Source of the DNA: Blastocatellia bacterium
GTDB taxonomy: Bacteria; Acidobacteriota; Blastocatellia; HR10; J050
Direction of reading: 5' to 3'
Assembly: GCA_025054955.1 (NCBI GenBank)
Contig: JANWZE010000071.1
Location: forward strand, 1 to 32,998
Length of the DNA stretch: 32,998 nt
In this document: positions 21,639 to 26,505 of the stretch, piece after piece
How the letters are laid out: each line of letters opens with the position of its first letter
Numbering within the stretch: the stretch's first letter is position 1
Program-made: the position numbers and the translations under genes
The notes under the pieces: generated by a model
The model's input: only the letters and a program-made list of their open reading frames with translations
The model's database searches: none
What the model was told of the DNA's origin: nothing

Positions 21639-22070
21639 TCAAATATCTAAGATCACCTGAGCCTGCCAGCCACGCGCCGTGCGTTCAACCTGAAAACGGT
21701 GGAGCGTAACTGCTTTGACGTCCACGACGAGCTCATGCTTGCTCGGATCAAGCCGCTCGCCATAAACCTGCGCCTCCGCTGTGTGGCGCTCGCCGTCCTG
21801 CCGAATCACCACACGCTGGGCGCGTAGCAGGAGTTGCTCGGCGTCCTTGTAAAAAACAAACTCTTGCAGGAATCGAAACAAGAGGAGGTCTAGCGCATGA
21901 GACTCAACCGAGATAGTGCGGCGCACTTGATCGTGGATGGTGTTGAGGTCGCTCACCATCACATTCATCGTCGCGTCGGCGGCGGCGATGAACAACTCTT
22001 CAAGCGTGTCGCCCCATGCTTCCAATGCCACGTCGGCGGTGGCGATGTCTTCAAGGTAGCGGTATGGCAT
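21639..22070 (-). CDS. Archease
   Basis: 143 residues, the family's usual length. Archease activates the RNA ligase RtcB and allows multiple turnover. The N-terminus YRYLEDIATADVALEAWGDT and the AAADATMNVM segment, the central SHALDLLLFRFLQEFVFYKD, and the C-terminal VKAVTLHRFQVER match the family, including the acidic residues that bind metal. It lies downstream of rtcB on the same strand, 250 bases apart, the gap being filled by a heptamer-repeat element. No ribosome site is obvious. Confidence 0.9.
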   Translation of the reverse strand: MPYRYLEDIATADVALEAWGDTLEELFIAAADATMNVMVSDLNTIHDQVRRTISVESHALDLLLFRFLQEFVFYKDAEQLLLRAQRVVIRQDGERHTAEAQVYGERLDPSKHELVVDVKAVTLHRFQVERTARGWQAQVILDI

Positions 22071-22074
22071 AGGC

Positions 22075-22323
22075 GTGATTCGTGGATCGTGGTCCGTGAT
22101 TCGTGGATCGTGGTGCGTGGATCATGGTCCGTGATCCTTGATTCGTGAGAAATGCCTGCGCTGAGCTGACCACTGTCCATTGACCTCCTGAGCACTGACT
22201 TCTGACTTCTGGCTCCTGACTCCTGACATTTGGCTTCTGGCTTCTGACTTCTGACTTCTGACCACTGACCACTGACCACTGACCACTGATCACCGACCAC
22301 TCCCCACTGACCACTATCCACTA
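22075..22323 (-). repeat. Composite heptamer-repeat element 2, between rtcB and archease
   Basis: Reading on the minus strand: about twenty-two 7-base units (22323-22167, for example GTGGTCA, GAAGTCA and GGAGTCA), then the 29-bp core (22173-22145: GTGGTCAGCTCA, GCGCAG, GCATTTCTCAC), then ten more units (22144-22075, for example GATCCAC and GAATCAC). One unit has eight bases. It begins at the rtcB stop codon and ends 4 bases before the archease ATG, and has the same order and core as the element at 11500-12039. No coding potential is believable within it. Confidence 0.88.
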
Positions 22324-23778
22324 TCCCTTGACATTGCCGATGGGAATGAATCGAACCACCGGTTTACTGAGGCCGGCTCGGTCGGTGGCCTCGATCACGT
22401 CGTCAATGTTCTTGTAGGCTGGGCCGGCTTCTTCTGCTAATCCGGCGTAGGAGACAGTGCGCACGTAGATGCCGCGGGCTTCCATCTGCCGTTGAAGTTC
22501 TTTGCCATTGAACAATTTCTTCGCCTTGTTGCGGCTCATGGTGCGACCACTGCCATGAGCTGTGGTGAAGAACGTTTGATCGCCGCTGGGGATGCCGGCG
22601 AGCAGATACGAGCCGGTCTCCATGCTGCCCCCGATGATGATCGGCTGCCCGGTCTGCTTGTAGATAGCCGGCAGCTCGTCAGCGCCGGGAGCAAACGCGC
22701 GTGTCGCGCCTTTACGGTGAACCAGCACATCGCGCATCTGACCGTCAACATTGTGCCGTTCGAGCTTGGCGGTGTTGTGCGCCACGTCATAGACCTGATG
22801 CAGGCCCAGTTCCTTCGGGTCCTTGTGAAACACGTCGGCGAACACTTCGCGGATGCGATGCAGAATGACTTGTCGGTTCGCAAATGACATGTTGATGGCG
22901 CAATTCATCGCGGCGAAGTAAGCCTGTCCTTCGGGCGAGTCGAATGGCGCGCAGGCCAATTCTCGATCAAGGATTTTGATCTTGTACTTGCTCTCCATGA
23001 CACTGAGAAACATCTCCAGGTAGTCAGTGGCGACCTGATGTCCAAAGCCTCTGGAGCCGCAATGAAACATCACCACAACTTGATTGGGTAGATCAATGCC
23101 AAATGCTTTGGCCAGCGCTTGATCAAACACATACTCAGGTTTGGCGACCTGAATCTCCAGATAATGATTGCCTGAGCCGAGCGTGCCGATTTGCTTGTAG
23201 CCGCGTTCGACGGCTTTCTTGCTGATTTTGGAGGCGTCGGCGCCGGCGATGCAGCCGCCGCCTTCCGTGCGTTCTAGGTCTTCCTGCCAGCCGTAGCCGT
23301 TCTGCACGCACCAACGCGCACCTTGCTCAACGACGTGGCGAAATTCATCCTGCGAGATTTTCACAAAGCCGGACGCGCCGACGCCGGCAGGCACGCGCGC
23401 GAATAATTTGTCCACCAGCGTCTTCAGATGCGGTTTGACCTCCTCGTAGGTCAGATTGGTTCGCACCAGGCGCATTCCGCAGTTGATGTCAAATCCGACG
23501 CCGCCAGGTGAAATGACGCCGGTTCGCGCATCCATCGCCGCCACGCCGCCAATCGGAAAGCCGTAGCCCCAATGCCCGTCGGGCATGCAATAGGCGTACT
23601 TCAAAATCCCTGGCAACGTGGCCACGTTTGTCACCTGATCGAACACGCCTTCGTCCATCTCTTGCAACAGCTTCTCTGTTGCAAAAATGCGGGCCGGCAC
23701 ACGCATGCCTTGTTTGTGTGTGATAGGAATTTCCCATGTGGTTTCGTTGATTTTCTTGATGTCATTTGGTATTGCCAT
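22321..23778 (-). CDS. rtcB: RtcB, 3'-phosphate RNA ligase
   Basis: 485 residues, full length. Joins RNA 3'-phosphate or 2',3'-cyclic phosphate ends to 5'-OH ends with GTP and Mn2+. Motifs: GVISPGGVGFDINCGMRL with the metal-binding Asp and Cys, GTLGSGNHYLEIQ, FHCGSRGFGHQ, YDVAHNTAKLE, GGSMETGSYLLAG, and TTAHGSGRTMSR, which holds the His that is guanylylated. The ATG at 23778 follows GGGGAGGTGAG. The archease downstream completes the usual repair pair. The stop codon lies at the edge of a heptamer array. RtcA and RtcR are not present in the window. Confidence 0.96.
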   Translation of the reverse strand: MAIPNDIKKINETTWEIPITHKQGMRVPARIFATEKLLQEMDEGVFDQVTNVATLPGILKYAYCMPDGHWGYGFPIGGVAAMDARTGVISPGGVGFDINCGMRLVRTNLTYEEVKPHLKTLVDKLFARVPAGVGASGFVKISQDEFRHVVEQGARWCVQNGYGWQEDLERTEGGGCIAGADASKISKKAVERGYKQIGTLGSGNHYLEIQVAKPEYVFDQALAKAFGIDLPNQVVVMFHCGSRGFGHQVATDYLEMFLSVMESKYKIKILDRELACAPFDSPEGQAYFAAMNCAINMSFANRQVILHRIREVFADVFHKDPKELGLHQVYDVAHNTAKLERHNVDGQMRDVLVHRKGATRAFAPGADELPAIYKQTGQPIIIGGSMETGSYLLAGIPSGDQTFFTTAHGSGRTMSRNKAKKLFNGKELQRQMEARGIYVRTVSYAGLAEEAGPAYKNIDDVIEATDRAGLSKPVVRFIPIGNVKG

Positions 23779-23858: not shown

Positions 23859-26423
23859 CTATTTGTAGACGGCGACGTCAGCTTTGCGCAGCAGTTGATC
23901 TTGGTAGTAGAAGCCGCGCCTGATGGTGCGGGCAATGGCTTGAGGGCGGCCGCCGGCGACGAATTCGACGATATTGTGCTCACCGGCTTGGAACGGCTCC
24001 ATGGCAATTGGCGCGATAGGTTTCAGGTGAGCCGCCTGAAACACATTTTTGAGGGCGCGCTCCAGTTCAGGATTTTCTCCGGGTGGAGCGAGCCGACGAT
24101 CACATACATCAACAGCCATGAGCACGTCGCCGCATATCAGCCGGTCAAGCTGATGTTGAATGTAGGCCTGTGGGTCTGTCAGTTTGTCAATGGCTTGCTT
24201 GACAGCGCGGCCCAGCTCTTCAAGAAAGAGCGCATAGCCGCTGGGACCGGCAGAGACGCGAATATGGAGGTCTAGTGTAATATCTCGGTTCTGTAATTGG
24301 GATTGGATCGTGGTGATCTCCCGGCTCACTCGGCGCGCGCGTTCGGAGGCTTGGCGGAGGTCGGCATAGACATCTTTGTTCATCGCTGCGCCTTTCGTCA
24401 GCAAATTGTCCAGCGCCTCAACCAACGCTTTAGCGCGCTCAGCTTCTGCCTGCAGGTTTTTGGCCAATGGTAGATCATCGCGGAAAAAGCGATTGAGGGT
24501 TTCTCCGGCGCGTTTCATCGCGGCTTCGAAGCCATCTTGTTCCAGGCCGTTGACCGTGCCGCCAAAGATAAGGCCTAAGAGTCGGGCGTAGAGCCGATCA
24601 GCAGACTCGCTGCTGAAGCCGGTCGCCTGCTCCGAAGCGCCAGCCGCTGAGCCTGATGGATGACTCGTCGTGCCCTGTTGCATCTGCGCGCGCAATTCCT
24701 CTAACGCCCGTCGGTGTTCGTCAGTATGGGCCTGTTGTTCGCGGACTTTGTTCACAAGTTGAGAGATGGCCTGTTCAAGCCCTTCGATCTTGGCCCGCGC
24801 TAGTTGCTGTTGTTTCATCAGTTCAGCCTTCAGCTCATCGAACGCGCGTTGCAGTCGCTTGCTGATTTGCTGCTCAACGGCCTCGGCTGCCCCGGCTTGC
24901 GTCTGGCTAGCCAGCGTCTGCTCCAGAGCAGCAAGGCGGTCACGTTCGCGGTGGAAGTCAATGATCAGCGTTTCCAAAGAGGCCAGCTTCTGTTCCATGT
25001 CCTCCAGTCGCCTGCCCTGTATTTGCACCGATTGGGTAAGCTGAGACGACGGATTGGATAAGTCGGTTGTGGGTGGTAACGGAGCAGGGGACTGACCCGT
25101 GAATGGGGGTCGTGATGTGAAGCGATTTTCGACATCGTCATACGATGGGCTGCGCACGGGGCTGCGTGAAGTTCGCTGGTGTGACCAAAACTGGGTGAGC
25201 TTCGTCCACCAGCCGGGTGAGGCAGGAGGCGGTGTCGGCGCTGGTGGTGGTATGACAGCCGACGGCCCGCTGTATCGCTCTGACATGGACACCATCAACA
25301 TGTCGGGTTCCGGTTCCATCACCGGCCGCTCAAACCGATGTCTCAAGTAACGGTATAAGACCCAGAGAATAGCCAACCCCAGAAGCAGGGCTACCAATTG
25401 ACCCACCGGCGACGAGATGAAGTCTTCAGCCAGCCACAGGAACGAAGAAGTCGCCCAGGTGATGGGCACCACCAGGACTTCACCCGCCTGGCCAACAGCA
25501 TCACGACGAACCGCATTGAGCAATTGAGTGCGATCTTCCGAAGAAAATTCAACCTGACCGCTTTGGATCAGCAGCTTGGAACTGCCCGGTTCGGTCGGTT
25601 GCTTGTTGAGCATGACATGGAGCGTCAGCGTTTGCTGAAAGCCGTACCATTGTTGGCTGCTTAATTGTTTGTTCGGTTCTAAATTGATGGTTTCTGAGGC
25701 AAGGATGTCCGGTGTCGAAATTTTGATGTGGGAGGGGATATCCACGAACCGGAGAAAGCTCCAACCAATATCATCGCCTTTGAATGTGACGGTCTGTGGC
25801 TTGAGGTAATCGTCAATTGATAATTTGAGGTTGGCCGGCGTGACCGAAATGGTTGGCAGCGGACTTCGCCAAAAGAGCTTAATGTAACGTGCCTCTGCCT
25901 GAGCGCTGACCTCGTTCTGCTGAGCCAGTAACTCGGCAGCTTGAACCGTGTCCGGTTGTGGTTGTCCGGCGGGCACGCGACCAACGCGGTAGACCAAGCT
26001 GATGGGCGAGGTGGCAGCGAGCGTCACCAGCAGCGTCACCGTCGCCTGTCCCTTGATGGGTATCCATTGGCCTTCCCGCAACGGCTCATCCGGCTTGATT
26101 GTCAGCTCAATGCCGGCGGGGATTTTGTCGAACCGGATGAACCACCAGTCAGGCTGATCGGTCGTCACTCTAATGCTGTAGGTTGTGGGAGCCCGTTCAT
26201 TATAGAAGCGGCCAATATCTTGCGTGATGGATTGCGGATTGGTCAGTTTCAGTTGAACAACCGGGGCGGAGGTTTGCGCGATGGCTGGTCCGCTTGCCCA
26301 CAATAGGCTGAGTAGACAAACCAGATTGCGCCATCTCCATTGCCGGCTACGCGTGGGCAGGCCGACACGCGGTTGTTGTTGAACGAGACGTGTCGCAACA
26401 CGGCCGGAGTCGGCAAGGTTCAT
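23859..26423 (-). CDS. Membrane-anchored protein with tandem extracytoplasmic domains, coiled coil and GrpE-like C-terminus
   Basis: 854 residues, not a family I recognise as a whole. A signal-like segment (RNLVCLLSLLWASGPAIAQ, 32-50) precedes an extracytoplasmic region holding two similar modules, with WWFIRFDKIPAGIELTI (about 93-109) and WSFLRFVDIPSHIKIS (221-236). One membrane helix spans 338-360 (VGQLVALLLGLAILWVLYRY). A Pro/Ser-rich linker follows, then a long coiled coil (about 465-582). The last 60 residues (AMEPFQAGEHNIVEFVAGG, AIARTIRRGFYYQDQLLRKA) look like the beta domain of the DnaK exchange factor GrpE. The ATG at 26423 has AGGAGAAGGC upstream. It follows nrnA at a gap of 82 bases. 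It could link DnaK to the membrane, but that is inference. Confidence 0.68.
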   Translation of the reverse strand: MNLADSGRVATRLVQQQPRVGLPTRSRQWRWRNLVCLLSLLWASGPAIAQTSAPVVQLKLTNPQSITQDIGRFYNERAPTTYSIRVTTDQPDWWFIRFDKIPAGIELTIKPDEPLREGQWIPIKGQATVTLLVTLAATSPISLVYRVGRVPAGQPQPDTVQAAELLAQQNEVSAQAEARYIKLFWRSPLPTISVTPANLKLSIDDYLKPQTVTFKGDDIGWSFLRFVDIPSHIKISTPDILASETINLEPNKQLSSQQWYGFQQTLTLHVMLNKQPTEPGSSKLLIQSGQVEFSSEDRTQLLNAVRRDAVGQAGEVLVVPITWATSSFLWLAEDFISSPVGQLVALLLGLAILWVLYRYLRHRFERPVMEPEPDMLMVSMSERYSGPSAVIPPPAPTPPPASPGWWTKLTQFWSHQRTSRSPVRSPSYDDVENRFTSRPPFTGQSPAPLPPTTDLSNPSSQLTQSVQIQGRRLEDMEQKLASLETLIIDFHRERDRLAALEQTLASQTQAGAAEAVEQQISKRLQRAFDELKAELMKQQQLARAKIEGLEQAISQLVNKVREQQAHTDEHRRALEELRAQMQQGTTSHPSGSAAGASEQATGFSSESADRLYARLLGLIFGGTVNGLEQDGFEAAMKRAGETLNRFFRDDLPLAKNLQAEAERAKALVEALDNLLTKGAAMNKDVYADLRQASERARRVSREITTIQSQLQNRDITLDLHIRVSAGPSGYALFLEELGRAVKQAIDKLTDPQAYIQHQLDRLICGDVLMAVDVCDRRLAPPGENPELERALKNVFQAAHLKPIAPIAMEPFQAGEHNIVEFVAGGRPQAIARTIRRGFYYQDQLLRKADVAVYK

Positions 26424-26505
26424 ATGCCTTCTCCTATGCAGGCCAAGGCGCGTCTGGGGCGCCTCGACGCGGGTCAATGGATCGTCAGCCATAAGTTCTC
26501 AGTCA

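Follow-up and report, generated by a model that had tools for sequence, protein, structure and literature searches.

A predicted single-pass membrane protein with a GrpE-like C-terminal end in three related Acidobacteria genomes

GrpE, the nucleotide exchange factor of bacterial DnaK (Pfam PF01025; structures 1dkg, 4ani, 3a6m, and 8gb3), is a soluble protein of about 200 amino acids. A 2015 review describes it as a soluble dimer and as the sole known type of Hsp70 exchange factor in bacteria (PMC4753570), and we found no membrane-bound or fused GrpE in the open literature. In yeast, Snl1 is a BAG-domain Hsp70 exchange factor anchored in the ER (PMC3962485). Work on M. tuberculosis GrpE has located a stalk patch at residues 60-80 that is needed for DnaK binding and for viability; stalk mutants nearly abolish ADP/ATP exchange, the main one also loses DnaK binding, and Arg169 bridges Glu236 of DnaK (PMC10803776). 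Here we describe a gene, X, found in a stretch of 32,998 nucleotides from a Blastocatellia bacterium, which is called the window below. Its product carries a GrpE-like end behind a predicted membrane helix, and we ask how far it resembles GrpE and what it may do.

The gene, its neighborhood, and its distribution

A start for X is possible at 26492, and the ATG at 26423, from which 854 codons and a stop lead to 23859, is the one with an AGGAG at 7 nt upstream, so the coordinates of the original prediction are right, with the addition that the gene lies on the minus strand, which had been left unstated (Table 1). X lies 82 bases after nrnA, shares its strand with nusA, infB, rbfA, and nrnA, and is followed by rtcB and archease. 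The neighborhood of X, where nrnA and rtcB are the neighbors, contains no dnaK, dnaJ, or other chaperone gene. The rtcB and archease genes (21639-23778, minus strand) themselves adjoin the nusA-infB-rbfA-nrnA genes. Elsewhere in the window, a single minus-strand frame at 212-1918 matches both Pfam NrfD and Pfam Cytochrome_C7; it encodes an NrfD-type membrane protein that ends in a cytochrome c7 domain, and a 4Fe-4S protein at 1795-2556 adjoins it.

X is known so far from three related Acidobacteria genomes of one family, namely the window's genome and two others, G001 and G002, which have homologues of 830 and 817 amino acids in the same place; searches of 58 relatives and of 396 genomes from the phylum found no others. 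The gene order rimP-nusA-infB-rbfA-nrnA-X-rtcB-archease is common to all three genomes, and in sister families (four genomes) archease directly follows nrnA with no X between. Thus, X is a gene of a single lineage, set between nrnA and rtcB-archease.

Several other matches were considered and set aside. One sister genome gave a weak match (L078, E 0.0015) that covers the coiled coil only, and a match in G044 is confined to the membrane and linker part. Other Acidobacteria have long GrpE frames of 549-718 aa, which were rejected as parallels to X, the GrpE part being ordinary in all eight that were examined; seven of the eight have a methionine shortly before the GrpE part, so most of the long frame above it is unlikely to be coding. 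In G005 (L073, G005:C13:67900-75000), repeated translated motifs (SETRTRFKEDCDS) a few kb after nrnA suggest a CRISPR array.

Table 1. Features of gene X and its product, with window coordinates and the basis of each assignment
Feature	Position	Strand	Basis
Whole gene X, membrane-anchored protein with GrpE-like end, 854 aa	23859..26423	-	open frame, ATG with AGGAG 7 nt upstream; homologues
Ribosome-binding site AGGAG of X	26431..26435	-	7 nt upstream of ATG at 26423
N-terminal hydrophobic segment, probable signal peptide or signal anchor, residues 34-52	26268..26324	-	hydropathy, all three homologues
Two related beta-rich extracytoplasmic modules, residues ~54-190 and 191-325	25449..26264	-	internal repeat; beta strands in model
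Transmembrane helix, residues ~338-360	25344..25412	-	hydropathy; helix in model
Poorly conserved linker, residues 365-457	25053..25331	-	pLDDT under 50; lowest identity
Predicted coiled coil, residues 458-582	24678..25052	-	two long helices in model
Conserved helical region, residues 605-763, no known family	24135..24611	-	helices in model; conservation
GrpE-like domain, residues 764-854, shortened bundle helices and beta-wing	23862..24134	-	Pfam, hhalign, dN/dS

The GrpE-like end and the protein that carries it

The last 60 residues of X had been proposed to match the beta domain of GrpE, and this resemblance is real in all three proteins. The Pfam GrpE family (PF01025) matches residues 788-854 of X (model positions 98-165 of 165) with an E value of 7e-7 and 29.5 bits, and it matches the same last-67-residue stretch of the two homologues with 34.8 and 38.9 bits, the gathering cut-off being 25.8 bits. 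When hhalign was used to compare a profile of the three X ends with one of 22 ordinary GrpEs of the same phylum, the score was 57.1 (P 6e-8) over residues 764-853, a stretch that includes part of the helical bundle, while the best of 300 column shuffles scored 28.2 and removal of the GrpE-like part (the last 91 columns) left a score of 17.5. The match therefore covers the last 60 residues and is longer than was claimed, reaching up to about residue 764. An HMM of the 22 ordinary GrpEs gave 13.6-24.4 bits with the three X ends, and the best of 6000 sequence shuffles reached 7.9 bits. Searched against the 396 genomes, a profile built on the last 253 residues of X recovers ordinary GrpEs in 4 of them at E<1e-3, and its top match among all PDB sequences is T. 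thermophilus GrpE (3a6m), a weak match that is not significant (E 0.53). Identity to GrpE is roughly 20-25% over some 90 aligned residues, and an AlphaFold model of the whole protein, built from three sequences only, gives residues 801-854 a mean pLDDT of 24-37 and is not a confident one there. From the sequence comparisons, we regard homology between the end of X and GrpE as established.

HNIVE stands at residues 816-820 and IRRGFYYQDQLLRKADVAV ends at residue 852, and the residues kept in all three proteins are D772, L791, F811, H816, G837, F838, L845, R846, A848, V850, and V852, with R776 and G799 kept in two of the three. Where GrpE has FDPxxH and (Q/K)KGY...LLRPAxVxV, X has FQPxxH and RRGF...LLRKADVAV, and the FxPxxH and RRGF-LLRxA motifs are gapless and have the right spacing relative to GrpE. 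R835 of X aligns with Arg169 of M. tuberculosis GrpE, a placement derived by counting from where the alignment ends and not from a printed alignment. In all three proteins the D of FDP is changed to Q, the P of LLRPA to K, and the K of KGY to R (FDP reads FQP in the homologues and FQA in the window protein), and the replaced D and P are invariant columns in the 22 ordinary GrpEs used. The stalk motif of GrpE (LR..A.F.N.RKR..RE) is not recognizable at the aligned place in X, where all of the conserved stalk residues of ordinary GrpE (R, A, N, R, E) are missing. The bundle loop, which in GrpE contacts lobe IIB of DnaK, is about 10 residues shorter in X. Of the bundle helices, D772 and, in two of the three proteins, R776 are kept, whereas an invariant G is lost. 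Because the stalk motif is unrecognizable, the bundle loop is shortened, and the wing is changed, we read X as a relative of the GrpE wing and not as a GrpE by all its defining features.

Because synonymous sites are nearly saturated in comparisons with the window protein, we took dN/dS from the G001/G002 pair only. The ratio for this pair is 0.059 at the GrpE-like end, 0.083 in the helical region, about 0.19 in the outside part and likewise in the coil, and 0.56 in the linker. The window protein and its G001 homologue, a comparison between genera, are 65% identical at the GrpE-like end and 33% identical in the outside part, and the helical region is 54-56% identical between the window protein and its homologues. 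The GrpE-like end is the most conserved and constrained part of X, with the linker lowest in identity, and it is under strong purifying selection, retaining FxPxxH, RRGF, LLRxA, and the last strand.

The arrangement originally predicted ahead of this end, with two outside modules, a single membrane helix, and a coiled coil, agrees with the hydropathy, with an internal repeat, and with a low-confidence model. The outside modules are the two copies of this repeat (E about 1e-5 in each of the three proteins) and are modeled as beta strands with pLDDT mostly 65-86 (AlphaFold, whole protein, three sequences); the outside part has no Pfam family and no significant PDB relative, and the modules are possibly an undescribed beta-rich module. 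The membrane helix appears in all three proteins as a hydropathy peak at 338-356 of 2.09-2.14 over 19 residues with a basic C-terminal flank, and the coiled-coil helices are modeled at 458-506 and 510-582 with low to moderate confidence. A hydrophobic segment at the start together with one in the middle of the protein and its basic flank implies a cytoplasmic C-terminus whether the first segment is cut or not. X should thus be a single-pass inner-membrane protein with its GrpE-like end in the cytoplasm, and the topology supports the placement that had been suggested for this domain.

Hsp70 partners and the possible role of X

The window's genome has an ordinary dnaK-grpE pair and a second grpE adjoining a ClpC-type gene. 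An ordinary grpE is present in G001 and G002 as well and hence in all three X genomes, so X is an addition to ordinary GrpE and not a replacement for it. The second grpE (L002, G000:C152) lies between a gene for an HtpX-like membrane protease and the gene for the ClpC-type AAA+ protein.

The original prediction also looked to co-conservation of X with a divergent DnaK, and this was not found. The window's genome does encode a divergent short Hsp70 of 523 aa (G000:C101:8023-9591, locus L061 2024-3595), but it occurs in only 4 of 58 relatives and was rejected as a partner of X because it is absent from G001 and G002. This protein has little or no substrate-binding part, and its gene adjoins a thioredoxin-like gene. 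Three other weak Hsp70 matches in the same genome, on separate contigs (L015, L016, and L017), look like MreB-type actins when judged by eye and were set aside. Since the divergent Hsp70 does not co-occur with X, ordinary DnaK is left as the only plausible Hsp70 partner and is the likely one, if X has a partner.

In our view, the likeliest role of X is that of a DnaK co-chaperone or docking factor tethered to the membrane, and we consider the case for a membrane-tethered co-chaperone evenly balanced. The recruitment or recycling of a DnaK-type chaperone at the membrane, as was first suggested, is possible. Two copies of X would be held side by side by the coiled coil, in the manner of the GrpE stalk, and the presumed pair would present two wings beneath the membrane and engage DnaK there. 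The beta-wing would dock in the nucleotide-binding domain of ordinary DnaK and hold or open DnaK near the membrane, where it might also affect ADP release, and the outside modules may tie this action to something in the cell envelope, perhaps through a signal from outside. A co-chaperone role is favored by the homology to GrpE, by the strong constraint on the GrpE-like end, by the kept framework of the wing, by R835 at a DnaK-contact position, by the membrane helix, and by the presence of ordinary DnaK. Against it, the window's genome already has two ordinary grpE genes serving DnaK, and full GrpE activity is doubtful because the stalk patch is lost.

The main rival explanation is that the fold has been repurposed, with the beta-wing taken over by a membrane scaffold for structure or protein binding and no longer acting on any Hsp70. 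The loss of the stalk motif, the shortened bundle loop, the replacement of the invariant D and P in all three proteins (FQP and LLRKA), and the lack of dnaK, dnaJ, or any other chaperone gene among the neighbors argue for this explanation and against the co-chaperone role alike, and the lack of a co-conserved divergent Hsp70 also fits it. However, very strong constraint has preserved both the framework of the wing and the Arg at the position of DnaK contact, and there would be less cause for a module of purely structural use to retain this surface, although this is not decisive. We therefore hold a repurposed fold to be a serious if somewhat doubtful alternative, and put the involvement of no Hsp70 at all at about one chance in three.

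It is unlikely, in our judgment, that X is a membrane receptor with the GrpE wing as its output, whose outside modules would sense the envelope and whose wing would alter the nucleotide state of DnaK; if it were, the chaperone cycle would be controlled locally from outside the cell. Still less probable is a negative regulator, in which the wing would bind DnaK without the stalk contacts and either park DnaK at the membrane or compete with ordinary GrpE. X has indeed kept the wing and lost the stalk, and the near abolition of exchange in M. tuberculosis stalk mutants would be consistent with such inhibition, but the main stalk mutant also loses DnaK binding, and so the wing alone may bind poorly (PMC10803776). 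That a short C-terminal stretch resembles GrpE merely by chance is very improbable, for although the match spans only 67-90 residues and the AlphaFold pLDDT is below 50 at residues 801-854, the curated cut-off is passed in three proteins, the motifs are gapless and rightly spaced, and the scores are far above those of 300 profile shuffles and 6000 sequence shuffles.

Comparison with known systems

X resembles GrpE in the framework of the C-terminal beta-wing motifs, in part of the helical bundle, and in the predicted helices and coiled coil ahead of them. It differs in that GrpE is soluble and about 200 aa long, whereas X has 854 aa with a membrane helix and outside modules, and in that the conserved stalk motif is not recognizable in X, its bundle loop is shortened, and FQP and LLRKA stand in place of FDP and LLRPA. 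With a wing but no stalk, X is a naturally occurring case in which to ask which parts of GrpE are required for acting on DnaK. Mitochondrial GrpEL1/Mge1 likewise have a GrpE-family wing and serve Hsp70 in protein import at a membrane, but they are soluble, reside in the matrix, and have no membrane anchor themselves. Yeast Snl1 is like X in idea, with an Hsp70-acting domain (a putative one in X) fixed to a membrane, and the likeness is one of analogy and not of relation: the BAG fold is unrelated to GrpE, and Snl1 is eukaryotic and has no large outside part. If X does act on DnaK as a tethered co-chaperone, then control of the Hsp70 cycle can be localized to a membrane in bacteria too, as it can by Snl1 in yeast.
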